49,394 nt of DNA from contig JAOAFA010000053.1 in the NCBI GenBank assembly GCA_026416535.1, positions 1-49,394 on the forward strand, read 5' to 3'. The notes under the pieces were generated by a model. That model did no database searches. It was not told the origin of the DNA and was given only the letters and a program-made list of their open reading frames with translations. Positions 29,049 to 46,678 of this stretch are shown here, piece after piece; position 1 is the stretch's first letter, and each line of letters begins with the position of its first letter. The stretch comes from Deltaproteobacteria bacterium (GTDB taxonomy: Bacteria > Myxococcota > SpSt-1050). The position numbers were made by a program, and so were the translations under genes.

Positions 29049-29483
29049 TTATTTAATCCTATTTTGTTTTTTATTCTGTATTTTTTCTCTAATAATAGCC
29101 TTTTGCTCCGGGGACAATCTCTTATATTTTTCATATACCTTTTTCAATCTCTCCCTTTTTTCTTTAGGCATGGTTAGATAATTTTTATACTTTTCTTTCA
29201 ACTTTATTTTCTCATTTTCAGGCAGACTGTTGTAATAGTGGTAGGCTCTTCTTATTCTCTCCTTTTCTTCTTCACTGAGCTTTTTAAATTTTTCATAGTT
29301 TTCAAGTATCTGCCTCTGCTTCTCCTTACTTAAAGTTTTAAATTTTAAATACCTCATTTTAAGTTCATTCTTTTCGGGCTCTGATAGTTTGTTGTATTCC
29401 TCTCTGTTCTCTCGGGCATCTAACCCACTAATTGAAAATAGAAAAAAAAGAATAACTAATGAAAAAATTCTACTCTTCCTCAT
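29049..29483 (-). CDS. Secreted 18-residue-repeat protein (DUF3106-like)
   Basis: A 144-aa product with a signal peptide (MRKSRIFSLVILFFLFSISG). From residue 31 to 138 it consists of six exact 18-residue units with the pattern x-x-L-[SP]-x-E-x-[KR]-x-x-[IL]-x3-Y-x-x-[FY], for example KKLSEEEKERIRRAYHYY and NSLPENEKIKLKEKYKNY. DUF3106 proteins share the 'LSPEQRxxLRExYxxY' style of repeat. The chain should form short charged helices. It is the last gene of a sigma/anti-sigma operon and overlaps the preceding gene by 14 bases, so a role in sensing or executing the envelope response is inferred. Confidence 0.8.
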   Translation of the reverse strand: MRKSRIFSLVILFFLFSISGLDARENREEYNKLSEPEKNELKMRYLKFKTLSKEKQRQILENYEKFKKLSEEEKERIRRAYHYYNSLPENEKIKLKEKYKNYLTMPKEKRERLKKVYEKYKRLSPEQKAIIREKIQNKKQNRIK

Positions 29484-29700
29484 ACTCTATTATCTCCAAT
29501 AAATTCTGATATTCAGTTAAATTCTCGACAAGATAATAATCCTTTAACAAATCGAGATATTTTATAACCTCCTCTTCAATATTTATTTCAGTTACATTAT
29601 TTGGTTCCTCCTCAGAACCTACCTTTACCTCATCACCAAGAAGTATTAAGGGGAACATAAACATAATAATCAATAATATCAAAGGCTCAAATTTCATCAT
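29470..29700 (-). CDS. Small secreted acidic protein in the sigma-factor operon
   Basis: A 76-aa product with an N-terminal hydrophobic segment (residues 5-21) followed by GDEV, likely a signal peptide. The remaining 53 residues are strongly acidic (EEEPNNVTEINIEEEV, EIIEYEEE at the C-terminus). It overlaps the anti-sigma gene by 14 bases and the repeat-protein gene by 14 bases, so all are translationally coupled. The opposite charges of this protein (acidic) and the next (basic) suggest that they bind each other; this is inference. No family recognised. Confidence 0.68.
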   Translation of the reverse strand: MMKFEPLILLIIMFMFPLILLGDEVKVGSEEEPNNVTEINIEEEVIKYLDLLKDYYLVENLTEYQNLLEIIEYEEE

Positions 29701-30187
29701 CTATGACCTCATTGAGTTCCTCAAGAATTTCTAAATTCTCTATTATATCGATATTAGAAAAAAGTTCAAACTCCGACAACATATCAAACTCAACACCGTT
29801 ACCTCTATCTAATATGTGTAACAGGTGGGTCTCTTTCTCATTCACTAAATTAACAGTTTCTTTTTTAATAAAGAGAAAAGTCGATATCAGAATTATTAGC
29901 AACGACGCAGCAATAGCTACAATTTTGTATATACTTTTGCTTTTTCTACCATTTTTATCTAACTGATTAATCTTCCTGACAATGTTTTCAAAAATGGTTT
30001 CACACTCATCTTCATCAAGCAAATCTCTATTTGGAGAATGTAGCAATACATTGATAACATTGAAGTAGTGCTCGAGCAATTCTCTGCATCTCTGACAATG
30101 TTGAATATGATGTGATATATCAACATTCTTTATCGCTTCCTCCTTTTGGTTATATTCAAACAGTATCTCATCAATATGTCTATCCAT
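29687..30187 (-). CDS. Membrane-anchored anti-sigma factor (zinc-finger type)
   Basis: A 166-aa protein whose N-terminal domain has the zf-HC2/ZAS signature His27-x3-Cys31-x2-Cys34 (SHHIQHCQRC). A single membrane segment lies at about 84-107 (IVAIAASLLIILISTFLFI), followed by a 55-residue acidic periplasmic tail. ZAS-type anti-sigma factors hold their ECF sigma factor at the membrane until a signal releases it. The start overlaps the sigma-factor gene by eight bases, as expected for a cognate pair. Confidence 0.88.
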   Translation of the reverse strand: MDRHIDEILFEYNQKEEAIKNVDISHHIQHCQRCRELLEHYFNVINVLLHSPNRDLLDEDECETIFENIVRKINQLDKNGRKSKSIYKIVAIAASLLIILISTFLFIKKETVNLVNEKETHLLHILDRGNGVEFDMLSEFELFSNIDIIENLEILEELNEVIDDEI

Positions 30188-30815
30188 TCTTAGTCTCCAA
30201 AATGCACAAAGTTGCCCTATGGATCAGGGATTTAACAGTGTTTATGTTTATATCCATAACCTCAGCAATTTCCTCGTACTTTAGTCCTTCTATCTTATGA
30301 AGTATAAAAGCCATTTTCTGGTTTTCTGGGAGCTGATTAAGCTTCCTCTCGATGTTTGAGAGGAGCTCATTTGCCTCTGTCGCCTGATCAGGCGTTATAG
30401 GTGAGCATAATACCATCTGCGCAGGATCATCCTTCCACGACCTAATCTTGTGATCTCTTATGTAGTTTAGTATACAGTTATAGGTTAACCTGTAAAAAAA
30501 CGTATTAAAACTTATGTCCGGTTTGTATAAGTCTCTTTTTTGATAGAGTCTTAGGAACACCTCCTGGGTTATATCTTTACTCGTCTCATAATCTCTACAG
30601 AACCTATATGCCATCGAGAACACTCTCTTTACGAATCTATCATATATCTTCCTGAAGGCAGTTATCTCTCCCTTACAGAGAAGTAACATAAGGTCCTTAT
30701 CGGATACTTCTAAGGAACCCAAGCCTTTGCCCTTCAGGTCCACCACATATTTAAACACACCTTCACTCTTTTTAGTTTCAAAAATGGAAGAACTACCCCT
30801 TTTAGGTGGGGGCAT
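30180..30815 (-). CDS. ECF-type RNA polymerase sigma factor
   Basis: The ATG at 30815 is preferred because GAGAG lies eight bases upstream; the frame extends to a TTG at 30830. In the 211-aa product, region 2 is GEITAFRKIYDRFVKRVF...DITQEVFLRLYQ and region 4 is LPENQKMAFILHKIEGLKYE followed by the helix-turn-helix IAEVMDININTVKSLIHRA. The first 45 residues before region 2 are unusually long, basic and without a known domain. It directs RNA polymerase to its regulon, under control of the adjacent anti-sigma factor. Confidence 0.92.
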   Translation of the reverse strand: MPPPKRGSSSIFETKKSEGVFKYVVDLKGKGLGSLEVSDKDLMLLLCKGEITAFRKIYDRFVKRVFSMAYRFCRDYETSKDITQEVFLRLYQKRDLYKPDISFNTFFYRLTYNCILNYIRDHKIRSWKDDPAQMVLCSPITPDQATEANELLSNIERKLNQLPENQKMAFILHKIEGLKYEEIAEVMDININTVKSLIHRATLCILETKNG

Positions 30816-30845
30816 ATATTTAACTCTCAATTTTTATTAGTTTTA

Positions 30846-32759: not shown

Positions 32760-34103
32760 CTAAAATATGAGACTACATTCACAACCTGTAAGCTCGTTTA
32801 ATTCGTCTAATATATTTATATCAGTGAGAGTGCCTGTATCTGGAAAATTAGAGGAACCTTCATCTCTCCCTACGATTGTGTCCGAGGATACTCCTGCATC
32901 TGAGTGGGCATAATCTGCCATACACGCACCACTCTCATTCGTTAATATAATGCACCTGTGTGCCTCTGGACATATTGGCTCCTTTGGGTTACACTCATAA
33001 TAACACTGTCCATACTCATCTTTTGAGTTTTTAGCTACACATATCAATCCAGATCTACATTCATTTAATGTATAACAGATCTCTCCCAGATCTTTTGAGG
33101 GATTAACACTATCACATTTATCATTTTCTGGCCAGCATCCACCTCCACCATTCTCAAGCTCAGCACAATAATATCCTTTCGGGCAATTGCTACTTGATAC
33201 CACACAATACCTTGAACAAATTGACAAGTTTCCATCTGTAAGACACAACTCTGATAAACAGTCTCTTGAGCTATCACAAGGCTTGCACAGATCTGACAAA
33301 TTATCTCCTGGAAAGCAGTAAAAATTATTGTCAGTCGCCTCAATGCACTTAAATCCATTGGGACAACTGCCCGCTTGCGAGGCAACACATTCCAGTGAGC
33401 ACACACCTGAATCACCATTCGATACACAGACGTTACTTTTGCAATCACTTGAATATTCACAAGGAGAACCAAATGAACCCTTAGTGTCAGATGTATGATC
33501 AGGATATAAGAAGCAGATCCCTCTGATATCATCCTCCTCAATACTACGCTCTTTTGTTTCCCCAGGACCGGTATATGGATACATAGTAGATCCATAAACC
33601 ATTGTGTGATCTAACCCAAAAAAGTGTCCTATTTCATGGGTAGCGATGTTCTGTAGATCCATCTTCCCCTTCTCTCCAGTTGTAGACCACTTAAAATCAG
33701 CGGCATTAAATCTAATATCTGCATCTTTGATATAGCCATCAGAATAGACTGCGGGTGTACATACAGCTATCGTGCCATAACCTCCTAGTTCATCAGGCCA
33801 CTTATCCTTTATGAAGAAAAGTATATTTTTAAAATCAGACGGAGATGCTGTTGTAGAAAGAGTCTTGCCAGCATATTCTGCTCTAATATACGTACAATCC
33901 GGCCTTGACCACTCATCAAAAGACGACTTTATGGCATTTATTACAGCTACTTCACTAAGACCTGAATTAGATGGATTTACATAATATTCAACAGGAATAT
34001 TAGAATCGTGCCATTTAGCGGAACTCCCATCAGGATTTTTTATGGTATTAAATCCAACACTAATTATTTGAACAAATATGATAAGTATGAGCATTCTTTT
34101 CAT
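32760..34103 (-). CDS. Secreted matrixin-like zinc metalloprotease with Cys-rich repeats
   Basis: A 447-aa protein with a signal peptide (MKRMLILIIFVQIISVGFN) and AGGAG upstream of the ATG. The catalytic domain (about 25-200) has the zinc motif HEIGHFFGLDH at 156-166 and a downstream Met-turn candidate STMYPYTG, placing it near M10/matrixin peptidases. Three repeats of a disulfide-rich module (about 205-395) follow, each with a C-x5-DC-x3-VC...CP-x-G-x-x-C pattern. An Asp/Ser/Thr-rich linker then leads to the final TGCECSLIF. The last motif is shared with the Asp-box protein at 40706-42670. Presumably active outside the cell or on its surface. Confidence 0.88.
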   Translation of the reverse strand: MKRMLILIIFVQIISVGFNTIKNPDGSSAKWHDSNIPVEYYVNPSNSGLSEVAVINAIKSSFDEWSRPDCTYIRAEYAGKTLSTTASPSDFKNILFFIKDKWPDELGGYGTIAVCTPAVYSDGYIKDADIRFNAADFKWSTTGEKGKMDLQNIATHEIGHFFGLDHTMVYGSTMYPYTGPGETKERSIEEDDIRGICFLYPDHTSDTKGSFGSPCEYSSDCKSNVCVSNGDSGVCSLECVASQAGSCPNGFKCIEATDNNFYCFPGDNLSDLCKPCDSSRDCLSELCLTDGNLSICSRYCVVSSSNCPKGYYCAELENGGGGCWPENDKCDSVNPSKDLGEICYTLNECRSGLICVAKNSKDEYGQCYYECNPKEPICPEAHRCIILTNESGACMADYAHSDAGVSSDTIVGRDEGSSNFPDTGTLTDINILDELNELTGCECSLIF

Positions 34104-40705: not shown

Positions 40706-42670
40706 ATGAAAAAATCTACAATCATCGCCTTATTTGGTGGAATACTAATATCATCTATCTGCAATGCCGAGTGGAAACAATTGTTTACACAGATGGGTAA
40801 CAAAAACGTCTGGGCTGGGGTAGAGGTCTTTGACGAAAACAATATATCTATGCCAGGTATAATGGAGAGCTCTGGCAATTCACAACCCGTACTTGGCTAT
40901 TCATCAGATGGACAAAACATCATAATGGGACAACCTCCAACAAATACAGATGCCCAGATGAGTATATTTCTATTTGTATCCGGCGCCGGAACAAACGGAT
41001 TTCTCGCTGGTATATCCCTTCTAAAGGGATTCCCACCACCTGTTATAATTGATGTAGCAAAATCTAATAATAAAGGCAAGAGTTACACAATCAGTAAAAA
41101 TGCACTTCCTGGCTCAAAGAATTTCAGTGCTTCAGCAATCTATTTTTCTGATCCTCTAACTGGGTGGATAGTGGGTAGAAGCGATAAGTCTTACTACCTC
41201 GCATATACTAAAGATGGAGGCACTAGTTGGACAGAAAATACGAGTTTTTATACATATAAGCAAGACATCTCTATCAACAATATATTCTTCATAAACGATA
41301 GAATCGGTTGGATTGTCGGTGGGGATAACGGAGAGATAAATGAGCAAACAGGTGAATATACAAGAAATCCTTCATCAGGATTTGTAGCTGTATCCACAGA
41401 CGGCGGAAAGACATTTAAAAATATTTACGAAAATACTAATTTTACTATAAATTCAATTCACTTTTTAGACTGTCAAAATGGGATTATTGCTGGCTACGAT
41501 GCTACAAAGGCCTACGTATTGTATACACGAGACGGAGGGAAGACCTTTACTTCAGGTGGTGAATTAAAAATACCTTTTGGGAATAAAACCTCAGATGCAA
41601 CTTTTGTATCCACCTTGCAGCTTCTCAACACCAATGAAGGATTCTTAGCAGCAAACTATCTCTCAGATACAAAGACAGATTCTTGTGTCCCGGGTGTCTT
41701 CAAGACCTTAGATGGTGGTAAGAGCTGGCAAATAGATGATACCTACTACTCTTCACTCTCTGGTTTTGCAAAGTACGCGTGTATTCATGGTATGCGATTT
41801 TTCTCAGAAAGAGTTGGATATGTCGTAGGACAACACATGCTTGTTGCAAAATATACAAATAACAGTGGCTCATCAGATAACAATAGATGTGTTGAGTGTA
41901 TGCTTGGGAAATGTCATAAACAGGAGATCTTAGATGCCGGTTTTGATACCACCTTACCGGATATCTCTTATCCAGATGGTCAAACGGTAGATATAACTGA
42001 GGATATTGGACCTATCATCACCTGTCCATCAGACAAGGTTCTTCCAATAACAGAGTCTAAAATCTGTTTTAAGGACAGTACTATGTCATCCCTAAAATCT
42101 TTCAAAGAAAATACGGGGTTTGCTGAGATCATCAATGGTACTTCATTTGTAGCCTATGTCATAGGCGAAAAGGAAGGGACTACACTTGGCCAGGCAAGAG
42201 ACGCAGCAAATAACAAGACAAAAGAAATAGATTATATAAAGCTCTCGATCTCTCCTTCTATGAAGGTTTCAGAGATGTATGGGTACGCGGGGCTAAGTTT
42301 TACTGGTTCAAACATATCTGCTCAAATTGTATATGACGATACAAACCACATCCTAATGATTAAGGGGCTCGAGGGTGATATTATTGGAGAGGACGGACAA
42401 AAGAAGGCGGTAATAACAATTGATATCGAAATTCCTGTCCTTAATGCCAAACAACTTAGCAATGTATCCAAAAATCAAGTAAACGAGATATGCAATCTAA
42501 ATAGGCTACCATGTTCTCCTCCCACTGAGGATGTTGGCATTGTAATTGTCGATGATGGTAAAACTCCCACTCCATCTGATACCTATACTACTGTTGATAT
42601 AGCCCACAGTTCAGACACCTTAAGAGACAGTGCTACCTCAGATGGGTGTAGTTGCACAACTCTCTTCTAA
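40706..42670 (+). CDS. Secreted Asp-box (BNR/Ycf48-like) protein with C-terminal GCxC tail
   Basis: The ATG at 40706 lies seven bases after AGGAGG; the ATG at 40700 is too close to it. The 654-aa product has a signal peptide (MKKSTIIALFGGILISSICNA). At least four Asp-box repeats (TKDGGTSW, STDGGKTF, TRDGGKTF, TLDGGKSW) between about 165 and 340 indicate a sialidase-like beta-propeller, as in Ycf48/HCF136-type proteins; an additional SSDGQNI lies near 66. A Cys-rich stretch, a beta-rich domain and a Ser/Thr/Asp-rich linker follow, ending SDGCSCTTLF. No sialidase catalytic set was seen. Stop overlaps the GT2 start (TAATG). Confidence 0.82.
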   Translation: MKKSTIIALFGGILISSICNAEWKQLFTQMGNKNVWAGVEVFDENNISMPGIMESSGNSQPVLGYSSDGQNIIMGQPPTNTDAQMSIFLFVSGAGTNGFLAGISLLKGFPPPVIIDVAKSNNKGKSYTISKNALPGSKNFSASAIYFSDPLTGWIVGRSDKSYYLAYTKDGGTSWTENTSFYTYKQDISINNIFFINDRIGWIVGGDNGEINEQTGEYTRNPSSGFVAVSTDGGKTFKNIYENTNFTINSIHFLDCQNGIIAGYDATKAYVLYTRDGGKTFTSGGELKIPFGNKTSDATFVSTLQLLNTNEGFLAANYLSDTKTDSCVPGVFKTLDGGKSWQIDDTYYSSLSGFAKYACIHGMRFFSERVGYVVGQHMLVAKYTNNSGSSDNNRCVECMLGKCHKQEILDAGFDTTLPDISYPDGQTVDITEDIGPIITCPSDKVLPITESKICFKDSTMSSLKSFKENTGFAEIINGTSFVAYVIGEKEGTTLGQARDAANNKTKEIDYIKLSISPSMKVSEMYGYAGLSFTGSNISAQIVYDDTNHILMIKGLEGDIIGEDGQKKAVITIDIEIPVLNAKQLSNVSKNQVNEICNLNRLPCSPPTEDVGIVIVDDGKTPTPSDTYTTVDIAHSSDTLRDSATSDGCSCTTLF

Positions 42671-43704
42671 TGAAGGTCTCAATAGCAATCGTCACATTCA
42701 ATAGTGCAGCAGTAATAAAAGACTGCTTGACATCCGTGGAGAAGATTGATTATGATAATTTCGAGATATTGATCTACGACAATGCATCCATTGATAATAC
42801 GATTGAAATTATCGAGAGTTTTGGAAATAAACGAATTAAAATAGTAAGAAGCTATTACAACAGAGGTTTTGGCTTTGGGCTCAATAGGCTTGCTGAGATC
42901 TCAACCGGTGAGATTTTAGCATCTCTTAATCCAGATACAGTTGTGGATAAAGAGTGGATAAAAAATGCTGTCAAACACTTTGTCTCTGAAGATGTAGGGA
43001 TGGTATCATCAAGAATCCTCTTCAAAGACAATCCAGATCTGATTGACTCAGCAGGTCATCTACTATATCCTGATGGCATTAACAGAGGAAGAGGGCACAA
43101 ACAGAGAGTCTGCGATGCCTTTTTGAAGACAACAGATGTAGCATTTCCAAGTGGTTCAGCCGGATTTTATAGAAGAGAGCTATTTTTAAAATTTGGTGGA
43201 ATAGACGAATCCTTTTTTCTATTTGGAGATGATACTGATATCGGAATAAAATTTCAACTCAATGGTTATAGATGTATTTATGAACCAGATTCAATAGTCT
43301 ATCATATATACTCTCACTCAACTGGGAAATACTCGGACATAAAGGCATATTTTGTAGAGAGAAATAGGGTCCGAATACTGCTTAAGTATTTTCCTACGAG
43401 GCTTATAGGCTGGAGTGCCCTTTATACATTAAAACGTGCCTTTTATCATAATTTATCCGCCATAATTGGCAAAGGGGATACAGCAAACTACCTAAAAAAC
43501 GGCTCCATATTTCGCCTCTACACTCTCATGCTGATGGCATATCTGGACACAATATTAAACCTACAAAATATATTAAGAACAAGGAAAGAGATCTCAAAGA
43601 AAATCAGAAATCGAAAAATAGGACAACTCTTACAGAGATTTCCAATTTCAGCCAGAGAAATCGCCCTTAATGATTATTCAAAAGGAGTAGATCATGATAT
43701 TTAA
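42670..43704 (+). CDS. Family 2 glycosyltransferase
   Basis: A 344-aa GT-A enzyme. The ATG at 42670 overlaps the previous stop (TAATG); an in-frame upstream TTG is less likely. The start KVSIAIVTFNSAAVIKDCL is typical, and YDNASIDNTIEI, ASLNPDTVVDKEWI and FGGIDESFFLFGDDTDIGI place it with rhamnosyltransferase-like GT2 proteins. The last 100 residues are basic and amphipathic and may attach to the membrane. It probably glycosylates a lipid-linked or surface glycan. Overlaps the M64 gene by 11 bases. Confidence 0.9.
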   Translation: MKVSIAIVTFNSAAVIKDCLTSVEKIDYDNFEILIYDNASIDNTIEIIESFGNKRIKIVRSYYNRGFGFGLNRLAEISTGEILASLNPDTVVDKEWIKNAVKHFVSEDVGMVSSRILFKDNPDLIDSAGHLLYPDGINRGRGHKQRVCDAFLKTTDVAFPSGSAGFYRRELFLKFGGIDESFFLFGDDTDIGIKFQLNGYRCIYEPDSIVYHIYSHSTGKYSDIKAYFVERNRVRILLKYFPTRLIGWSALYTLKRAFYHNLSAIIGKGDTANYLKNGSIFRLYTLMLMAYLDTILNLQNILRTRKEISKKIRNRKIGQLLQRFPISAREIALNDYSKGVDHDI

Positions 43705-44944
43705 TTTACTCGCACTACTAATTACTCAAATTCAGGATATAAAATTTGATGACTATTTTGTAGATAAAACCATGCGCGTTGACATGTATATAACAGGTAA
43801 CCATATTGAGGAAGTTATCACACTTGATGAAATTATAGTAGAGGACATATGGGCTGGTTCCAAGACAAATCTGATAGACTACACAGGATACGGTTGCGAA
43901 CAGGTCAGAATCTATCACACAAAAAGTTCAAGGATGATATATTCACGAGGTTTTTGCACACTCTTTGGAGAATGGCAGACAACAGATGAGGCAAAAGTAA
44001 TGAAGAGAACATTTCACAATACCGTGAGATTTCCATATCCGAAAGATGAGGTTGAGTTGGTAATTGGAGTTGGACAGAAAAAGCTCTTTTCAATGAAAAT
44101 TGATCCCCTCAAGGTAAGGGCAAAGAAGTTAAATCCGAGTAGGCATGAGAATATAAAGCTACACTATTCTGGGGAATGCAGTAAAAATCTTGACATTATC
44201 ATCCTCCCAGAAGGTTACACAAAAACTGAGGAGAAGAAGATGATTAAAGATGCAGAGAGATATACTGGAATTCTACTCTCGTCCGAGCCTTATAGTTATT
44301 TTAAGAATAAAATTAACATCTGGCTTGTAAAGTTATTCAGCAATGAATCAGGTGTAAGTGAACCAAGAAAGGGGATTTACAAAGATACCGCACTCAACCT
44401 TACGTTCAATACATTTGAGATTGAGAGGTATCTAACAGCACCTGACAACAAGAGAGTCAGAAATGCCGCAGCTCATACATGCTATGACACTATACTTATC
44501 ATGGTCAACACCAATCGCTATGGCGGGGCCGGGATATTTAATCAATGGGCGATCTTCCCCTCCGATAATGAATATGATGACTATGTATTTCTGCATGAGT
44601 TAGGACACTCATTTGCAGGACTTGCAGATGAGTATTACACCTCAAAAGTAGCATATTCTGATTTTTATCCAAAGGGTCTTGAACCATGGGAGCCAAACAT
44701 TACAGCATATCTTAAAAGAGATGAAATTAAATGGGGTAATTTAATAAAAAAAGGTATTCCGATCCCAACTCCCGAAAAAGAGGAATACAAAAACCAAGTC
44801 GGGCTTTTTGAAGGGGCAGGTTATGCGGCAAAAGATCTTTATAGGCCCATGATGGACTGTAAAATGTTTTCAAAAGGTTCATCACCGTTTTGCGTAGTCT
44901 GCAAAGCATCTATCGAAAAAATGATAAAGTTTTATTCTGAATAA
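43694..44944 (+). CDS. IgA-peptidase-M64-family metalloprotease
   Basis: A 416-aa protein. A short hydrophobic N-terminus (MIFNLLALLITQ) may be a signal peptide. The N-terminal beta domain (about 20-150) precedes LDIIILPEGYTKTEEKKM, the typical start of the M64 catalytic domain. The zinc motif is HELGHSFAGLADEY with His301, His305 and Asp312/Glu313. AAGGAG precedes the ATG, which overlaps the GT2 gene. Known members cleave IgA heavy chain, but most bacteria carrying it are not mucosal, so the substrate here is unknown. Confidence 0.9.
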   Translation: MIFNLLALLITQIQDIKFDDYFVDKTMRVDMYITGNHIEEVITLDEIIVEDIWAGSKTNLIDYTGYGCEQVRIYHTKSSRMIYSRGFCTLFGEWQTTDEAKVMKRTFHNTVRFPYPKDEVELVIGVGQKKLFSMKIDPLKVRAKKLNPSRHENIKLHYSGECSKNLDIIILPEGYTKTEEKKMIKDAERYTGILLSSEPYSYFKNKINIWLVKLFSNESGVSEPRKGIYKDTALNLTFNTFEIERYLTAPDNKRVRNAAAHTCYDTILIMVNTNRYGGAGIFNQWAIFPSDNEYDDYVFLHELGHSFAGLADEYYTSKVAYSDFYPKGLEPWEPNITAYLKRDEIKWGNLIKKGIPIPTPEKEEYKNQVGLFEGAGYAAKDLYRPMMDCKMFSKGSSPFCVVCKASIEKMIKFYSE

Positions 44945-44980: not shown

Positions 44981-46678
44981 ATGCCAAACATAAGCTTAGT
45001 AAATATATTGTGGAAGAAGATCCTACCTAAGATACCTATTGAGGCAGTTCCGCTACTCGCTCAATTGTTATTTATTCGTTCATGGGGCAGGTTTAGTGAT
45101 GCAGTCAAGGATCCAGAGAGATACCAACGGGAAAAGATAAAGGAGATAATCAACAAAAACAAGGATACAGAATTTGGTAAGATCCATGGTTTCAATAGCA
45201 TAAAAAGTGCTGAGGAGTATAGAGAAAGGGTTCCCTTACAGACATATGACACCCTGGAACCATATATTGAAAGGATAAAAAATGGTGAAAAGAATATCCT
45301 AACATCTGAGGAGGTCATCTTCTTTGGTAGAACGAGTGGGACAACAGGAGCAGCAAAGTTTATCCCAGTCACAAAATCTTTTCTTCAAGAGTACAAACTC
45401 CCAAGAAGGGCATGGATGAGACAGGTCGTAACTGAGATGCCAGGACTCGTATATGGAAGACTTCTGACAATTCACTCTCCAAAGATAGAGGGGAGGACCA
45501 AAGGTGGAATACCTTATGGCTCAATAACAGTAGCAATGGGTGCAGATAATCTGGGACTATCTATTGCCAGAGGTTTTCATGAAATACCTATGGAAGTTTT
45601 CTTTATAGAAGACTTTGACGCAAAATATTACTACATCCTGAGATTTGCTCTCGAGATGGAGATATCCATTATTGCAGCAATTAATCCATCAACAATATTA
45701 CTCTTCGCAAAAAAACTCACAGAGTATGCCGACTCTCTAATCAAGGATTTAAAACACGGAGATATAAACCCTGACTTTAAGGTAGATAGGATTATTAGGA
45801 AGAGATTACTCAAAGATCTAAAGCCAAATTTGCATATGGCAGAGAGAATGGCTTATAGTCTTGATAAAAACGGGTTCGTAAAGCCCGTTGAAATATGGAG
45901 CAAACTATGTGGGCTTATGTGTTGGAAAGGCGGTTTTGGTCCATATTATATCTCCCAGTTCGAAAAATATTTTGGCAATTTACCAATTATGGATTATGGT
46001 TATGCAGCCACAGAGGGAAATTTTGCCATACCTGTCTCAACTAAAAGAAATGACAATGTCCTCATTCCTTATGGACACTTCCTTGAATTTATCTCTGAAG
46101 GAGACAATAAGCCATATTTCATGTGGGAACTCAAAGAGAGAGAAAAATATAGGGTTATTATAAGTGCCTCAAATGGTCTCTATAGATATGACATCAACGA
46201 TATTGTTGAAGTAACCGATTTTTACGATAAGACACCATGTATAAGATTTCTTCACAAAGGGGGTAATATTATATCAATTACGGGTGAAAAGATAACGGAG
46301 AGTCATGTGATCAAGGCACTATCAGAACTCATCAATATTACAGGGTTGGGTATAAATGGTTTTACAGTAACAGTCTCGCTCGAGGATACCCCCTCCTATG
46401 TCCTTGCAATAGAACCACAACAAAGGCTTAATGAAATGCAGAGAGAAGCAATCGCTATGGAATTCGACAACCTCCTTAGAAAAGCAAACATTGAGTATGA
46501 CTCAAAGCGAAGGAGCCAAAGACTAAGTGAACCAAAACTAATTATCCTTAAAAGGGGATTTTTTGAAAGATACCGCTCTATGCAGATCGAGAGAGGAGCA
46601 CCCGATGCTCATCTAAAGCCACCACACTTAACAATGAAACAAGAGATCGTAGATTTGTTATACGCAGAAAGGGAATAG
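44981..46678 (+). CDS. GH3-family (auxin-responsive-promoter type) acyl-adenylase
   Basis: A 565-aa protein of the GH3 branch of the ANL superfamily. The ATP motif FGRTSGTTGAAKFIPVT lies at about 114-130, YAATEGNFAIP near 342 and the hinge region YRYDINDIVEV near 410. In plants GH3 enzymes conjugate amino acids to jasmonate or auxin via acyl-AMP; bacterial members are mostly uncharacterised. GAGAGG precedes the ATG. It is followed three bases later by a HAD phosphatase and then by the nitroreductase-hotdog fusion. Substrate unknown. Confidence 0.92.
   Translation: MPNISLVNILWKKILPKIPIEAVPLLAQLLFIRSWGRFSDAVKDPERYQREKIKEIINKNKDTEFGKIHGFNSIKSAEEYRERVPLQTYDTLEPYIERIKNGEKNILTSEEVIFFGRTSGTTGAAKFIPVTKSFLQEYKLPRRAWMRQVVTEMPGLVYGRLLTIHSPKIEGRTKGGIPYGSITVAMGADNLGLSIARGFHEIPMEVFFIEDFDAKYYYILRFALEMEISIIAAINPSTILLFAKKLTEYADSLIKDLKHGDINPDFKVDRIIRKRLLKDLKPNLHMAERMAYSLDKNGFVKPVEIWSKLCGLMCWKGGFGPYYISQFEKYFGNLPIMDYGYAATEGNFAIPVSTKRNDNVLIPYGHFLEFISEGDNKPYFMWELKEREKYRVIISASNGLYRYDINDIVEVTDFYDKTPCIRFLHKGGNIISITGEKITESHVIKALSELINITGLGINGFTVTVSLEDTPSYVLAIEPQQRLNEMQREAIAMEFDNLLRKANIEYDSKRRSQRLSEPKLIILKRGFFERYRSMQIERGAPDAHLKPPHLTMKQEIVDLLYAERE

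Follow-up and report, generated by a model that had tools for sequence, protein, structure and literature searches.

A shared C-terminal tail on two exported proteins

The locus analyzed here, a window comprising the whole stretch of 49,394 nucleotides, raises the question of why two exported proteins with no other recognized domain in common should end in closely similar, Cys-containing tails. The first, P0001 (32760..34103, reverse strand), is a matrixin-type (M10) metalloprotease of 447 residues with a Cys-rich region, which matches PF00413 at 61.5 bits (cut-off 24) and which among NCBIfam models comes closest to NF041905, 'myxosortase-dependent metalloprotease', at 85.5 bits and under its cut-off of 250. 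The second, P0002 (40700..42670, forward strand), is a BNR/Asp-box protein of 656 residues with BNR/Ycf48-type repeats, identified by PF14870 (41.8 bits, cut-off 27) and by the BNR repeat model PF02012. Both present N-terminal export signals and, as the initial annotation had stated, both finish in a GCxC motif at the extreme C-terminus. The metalloprotease ends LTGCECSLIF (tail G-C-E-C-S-L-I-F-stop, 32760..32786, reverse strand) and the BNR/Asp-box protein ends SDGCSCTTLF (tail G-C-S-C-T-T-L-F-stop, 42644..42670, forward strand), with no helix or Arg run after the Cys motif in either case. The Ser/Thr/Asp-rich linkers described ahead of the tails are likewise present, each spanning 40 residues and containing nine acidic residues (D/E), together with 10 S/T in the metalloprotease (32787..32906, reverse strand) and 13 S/T in the BNR/Asp-box protein (42524..42643, forward strand).

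Near the Asp-box gene, the window encodes an IgA-peptidase-like M64 protein devoid of a Cys tail (43694-44944, forward strand; PF09471 and PF16217 over cut-off) and a protein similar, on inspection by eye, to the GH3 acyl-acid-amido synthetases described in plants (44981-46678, forward strand). Elsewhere (29049-30830, reverse strand) genes in a row encode a sigma factor, a putative anti-sigma factor and a small Lys/Glu-rich exported protein that contains repeated motifs.

Distribution and constraint of the tail in the genus

The terminal Phe had been taken as a defining feature of the tail, but a search of the 2.96-Mb window genome (G000) with this residue fixed returned no match beyond the two window proteins. 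The relaxed pattern G-C-x-C-[ST]-x-Φ-x-stop, on the other hand, identifies 15 exported proteins of unrelated families on many contigs, so that the search for further tails proposed by the initial annotation fails in its Phe-specific form and succeeds in the relaxed one. The remaining tails of this genome are GCSCSVLE, GCSCSILSY, GCSCSYVD, GCSCSLID, GCSCSVIN, GCSCTLIE, GCSCSFID (twice), GCSCTTLSID, GCSCSLIE, GCSCSFIE, GCGCSFLR and GCSCNVVE, each directly followed by a stop codon. Among their carriers are proteases that by eye are M36-like, M4-like, papain-like or of matrixin type, along with a kelch protein, an agmatine-deiminase-like protein and InlB-type repeats, and nearly all carriers combine an Asp/Ser-rich linker with an N-terminal export signal. 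A further 32 tails, all of them at the ends of open frames, are present in G167, a genome of the same genus. The proposal of a C-terminal signal shared by unrelated exported proteins is thus borne out in both species.

The tail matches cannot be attributed to chance, since the eight-residue form has 12 matches in G000 and 32 in G167, against a single one in each for a reversed-pattern control. When 195 genomes of the phylum were scanned for this form, only these two stood clearly over the control. In G008, 12 matches against none for the reversed pattern were judged to be due to chance, as they correspond mostly to near-identical GC-rich repeats without stop codons. Loose-pattern candidates C7, C17, C32, C9, C45, C2:29399, C5 and C76 were likewise discarded, no ORF of more than 60 residues ending in the tail. 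A collection-wide scan of 84,980 species, limited to one codon form (GCSCx-Φ-I-E, with TCN serine) and hence not covering the longer form of G166 described below, yielded eight matches, four of which are G167 itself; of the other four, two belong to frames that are 37 and nine residues long and two have no matching frame. The M36 protein L038, used as a query against named genomes, found no relative in them.

Within the genus the tail follows the consensus G-C-[S/G]-C-[S/T]-hydrophobic-[I/L/V]-[E/D/N/F/R/Y]-stop, and the exact form G-C-[S,G,E,A]-C-[S,T]-x-[I,L,V,M]-x-stop applies to 44 of 46 tails. Exactly four residues follow the second Cys in 45 of the 47 genus tails (15 in G000 and 32 in G167), and the third of these (position +3) is I, L or V in every G000 tail, even though the search in this genome did not fix it. 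The last residue, which leaves a free carboxylate at the tail end, is often acidic and is Phe in only six of the 44 eight-residue tails. Variable as it is between families, this residue is the same in nine of 12 pairs of orthologs that are 56-77% identical between G000 and G167. Phe is accordingly kept within each of the window families, the G167 orthologs of P0001 (75% identity) and P0002 (72%) ending, respectively, in GCECSVLF and in the unchanged GCSCTTLF. An export signal is detected by a simple hydrophobicity rule in 26 of 29 complete genus ORFs and can be recognized by eye, from an alternative start, in the other three.

Two cases in this set deserve separate mention. In the C120:5103 region of G000, a PHP-like exported protein with the tail (L044) is encoded in a frame of 81 residues, compared with 395 in its G167 copy (L083), which possibly reflects a frameshift or an assembly error. 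The M4-like proteases L039 (G000, C66) and L162 (G167, C94) combine an N-terminal lipobox (LFSC and LSAC) with the C-terminal Cys tail and could be lipidated at both ends.

Derivation of the tail from MYXO-CTERM

The initial annotation had regarded the tail as separate from MYXO-CTERM, and its observation that the helix and Arg cluster of the latter are absent is correct. The separation itself does not hold. The G166 ortholog of the window metalloprotease (50% identity), from another family of the same order, ends SCECSAVGVDARGHATFLAFFASIAALVVFVVRRRQ, that is, SCECSAV followed by a transmembrane helix and then by RRRQ, and the GC[SGEA]C motif of the G000 and G167 tails, with its invariant, GCGC-like Cys residues, aligns with this SCECSAV. 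In homologs of the metalloprotease from other families of the phylum, the same succession of Cys motif, helix and Arg end was observed in nearly every case read, the exceptions being L146, which has no tail, and L139, which runs off its contig. Similarly, the M36 family has the short tail in G000, G167 and G166 and full MYXO-CTERM in G171, G164, G018 and G017. Because the G166 ortholog and nearly all of the homologs read carry the full form, the tail can be equated with MYXO-CTERM minus helix and Arg cluster, and at the level of sequence homology these comparisons establish that it derives from MYXO-CTERM by truncation just after the Cys motif. Further tails missing from the genome, or orthologs ending differently, had been named as grounds for abandoning a shared signal. 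The former was the case only for the over-specific Phe pattern; as for the latter, G167 orthologs have the same tail type, and the differing end in G166 identifies the tail as MYXO-CTERM-derived.

The tail proteins themselves end 3-11 residues past the second Cys, with neither a transmembrane helix after the motif nor an Arg-rich cytoplasmic end. The MYXO-CTERM model TIGR03901 matches neither P0001 nor P0002, and detects no MYXO-CTERM in G000 and G167, compared with 13-20 in G101, G116 and G171. As this model misses at least one full tail (L133), its zero matches do not prove that helix-bearing substrates are gone from the genus.

A truncated end might also be produced by assembly-error stops, or by recoded stops that are read through into the helix. 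The sequences are metagenome assemblies and L044 is indeed a fragment of a longer G167 protein, but TAA, TAG and TGA are all in use as stop codons of tail genes, no helix followed by RRR is encoded downstream in any of the three frames within 180 bases in 72 genes, and the tails occur in three independent genomes. The use of three stops and the lack of a downstream remnant exclude recoding and simple assembly error, and the data refute an artefactual origin to the point that we assign it practically no weight.

The same orthology bears on the possibility that the Cys pair serves in protein structure or metal binding, or forms a disulfide, and plays no part in sorting. Metal binding and disulfide formation are both within the reach of vicinal C-x-C motifs, and many of the tail proteins are Cys-rich. 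However, the carriers have no structural relationship to one another (M10, M36, papain-like, kelch, agmatine-deiminase-like and BNR), the motif is invariably placed at the very C-terminus behind a linker that looks disordered, and in orthologs this place is occupied by a bona fide sorting signal, all of which makes a purely structural function very improbable. A role of the tail in sorting or lipidation, as first suggested, remains plausible.

Short tails in the sister family

The order is sampled here by three genomes (G000, G167 and G166). In G166, a looser search with ORF checks reveals about 60 short tails that are slightly longer than those of the genus, usually with 5-7 residues after the second Cys and with the consensus GC[SG]C[AS]xΦ, to which GΦ is often added. 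They coexist with a few MYXO-CTERM tails in full form (L133, L094 and two in L101). A first, broad pattern without the Gly had been swamped by chance matches in this genome. All patterns used required both Cys residues, so single-Cys tails would be missed, and those applied to the phylum and to G166 also required a hydrophobic residue at +3, conservation of which in G166 is therefore partly built in. Independent support for this position comes from the G000 search and from homologs found without any pattern (L177, L182 and L198).

As short-tailed relatives of several G000 families occur in G166, the shortening of the tail, as read from these homologies, probably began before the two families split. 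Two G166 proteins at contig ends, L277 (C272) and L278 (C279), have near-identical Asp-rich linkers and end in GCGCAQVGE and GCGCAQVGM, respectively, which suggests a recent duplication of tail-bearing segments.

A retained myxosortase

Both G000 and G167 encode a single PF02517 (CPBP-family) protein, which NF040914 (Mrt_core, cut-off 100) identifies as a myxosortase with 108.9 bits in G000 and 117.7 in G167, compared with 136.6 in G166. The catalytic CPBP motifs EExxxR, FxxxH and HxxxN are intact, with E152, E153, R157, H192, H228 and N232 invariant with respect to MrtX. The named subtypes are not reached in G000 and G167 (MrtP, 153 and 159 bits against 250; MrtC, 132 and 136 against 195; MrtX, 74 and 83 against 180); elsewhere in the phylum, genomes of 9-14 Mb have MrtX (460 bits), which points to Myxococcota. 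The genus also has the secretin of the type II secretion system (T2SS), with GspD over cut-off. The myxosortase gene adjoins an apparent ispD-ispF fusion gene both in G000 (L125, 6030-6761, C109) and in G167 (L105/L126, C2).

Taken together, these sequence data reveal a little-known order of myxobacteria-like bacteria in which dozens of secreted proteins carry a MYXO-CTERM motif without helix or Arg cluster while the enzyme has been kept. The helix and Arg cluster are the defining parts of MYXO-CTERM, and their loss might mean that GCxC is just a vestige and that the proteins are simply released, much as TraA of M. xanthus is released through the T2SS when it lacks MYXO-CTERM (PMC11980579). 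A vestige would be expected to decay and to vary in length, whereas G-C-x-C-[S/T]-Φ-[I/L/V]-x is maintained at near-fixed length in 47 proteins of two species, the final residue included in most of the diverged ortholog pairs, and the myxosortase is retained. We therefore regard simple release as rather improbable. The strict conservation of Ser/Thr, of the hydrophobic pair and of the near-fixed end argues instead for recognition of the last residues, since a leftover would drift.

Recognition could be exerted by some other enzyme or receptor, such as an acyl- or glycosyl-transferase or the T2SS itself, with no cleavage by myxosortase. The regular spacing of four residues after the second Cys, the free carboxylate and the often acidic end are reminiscent of a ligand for a C-terminus-binding protein, and the helix-bearing tails that persist in G166 are possibly the real substrates of the enzyme. 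Nevertheless, the genus maintains a catalytically intact myxosortase in spite of having no detectable helix-bearing tails, and no other candidate enzyme was seen beside the myxosortase gene in G000. We deem this alternative unlikely, though it carries more weight than the others considered here.

A candidate minimal myxosortase substrate

The reading that we favor, with some confidence, is that the tail serves surface anchoring as a minimal substrate of myxosortase, similar to a CaaX box. Sec would export the tail proteins, one Cys within GCxC would be lipidated in the periplasm or at the inner membrane, myxosortase would remove the last few residues, as Rce1 trims the CaaX box, and the T2SS would place the protein on the cell surface, where the lipid would hold it. 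The helix, needed elsewhere to keep the substrate at the membrane, would be dispensable here, and the conserved hydrophobic position just ahead of the C-terminus would form part of the recognition site of the enzyme. There is precedent for several of these steps in M. xanthus, in which MrtX cleaves TraA near the Cys motif, cleavage and surface anchoring both need the Cys residues, and lipidation followed by T2SS export has been proposed (PMC11980579). Against anchoring, it is hard to see how a soluble tail would be kept at the inner membrane, and every substrate of prokaryotic CPBP sorting enzymes described in that work is tripartite and bears a helix (PMC11980579). Moreover, the N-terminal lipobox of L039 and L162 implies that these proteins would not need the tail for membrane binding, which fits poorly with a pure anchoring role.

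A broader and more tentative version, to which we give somewhat less than even weight, is that throughout the order a helix-anchored signal has turned into a soluble, CaaX-like tail, in which a periplasmic enzyme would lipidate the Cys and the diverged myxosortase would trim the end, amounting to an extracytoplasmic counterpart of CaaX processing without a membrane-spanning substrate.

To our knowledge, the known prokaryotic C-terminal sorting systems (sortase, exosortase/archaeosortase, rhombosortase and myxosortase) all have as substrates tripartite tails that include a helix and a basic end. We found no description of a helix-less MYXO-CTERM in the literature searched, which deals only with the tripartite form; a 2024 in-silico study of myxosortases may mention short forms. 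Processing of the tails would mean that the helix can be dispensed with and that the recognition site shrinks to some eight residues, and both the identity of the enzyme that lipidates the Cys and the order of lipidation and cleavage would become approachable with soluble peptides of small size. Without processing, the lineage would instead reveal other grounds on which selection maintains a myxosortase. The requirements of sorting tails of this kind can be addressed in this system. As models such as TIGR03901 miss the tail proteins, annotation of the surface proteomes in such lineages would fall short.

Comparison with known sorting systems

The GlyGly-CTERM/rhombosortase, PEP-CTERM/exosortase and LPXTG/sortase systems resemble the one described here in that many exported proteins of unrelated kinds are tagged for sorting at their C-terminus, but their tails are all tripartite, with helix and basic end (PMC11980579). 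Their signatures and enzyme families are also unlike those of the tail. A closer likeness, in resemblance only, is to the eukaryotic and archaeal CaaX box, a tail likewise short and soluble, in which a Cys is combined with aliphatic residues and a final residue that varies, and the CaaX protease Rce1 belongs to the same CPBP superfamily as myxosortase. The CaaX box differs in that the present carriers are exported, that four residues rather than three follow the second Cys, the Cys residues lying at -5 and -7 in 45 of the 47 genus tails and not at the -4 of CaaX, and that prenylation is not expected from the data. With MYXO-CTERM (TIGR03901) the tail shares its location at the extreme C-terminus of exported proteins, the Gly-Cys-x-Cys motif, the low-complexity linker and the orthology of the P0001 family; the missing helix and Arg cluster, the early end and the lack of a model match set it apart from MYXO-CTERM. 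Finally, when compared with the CPBP glutamic intramembrane proteases MrtX, MrtC and MrtP, the genus enzyme falls under all subtype cut-offs and the only candidate substrates seen here are helix-less, yet this sole PF02517 protein of the genus fits the myxosortase core model and keeps its catalytic residues.
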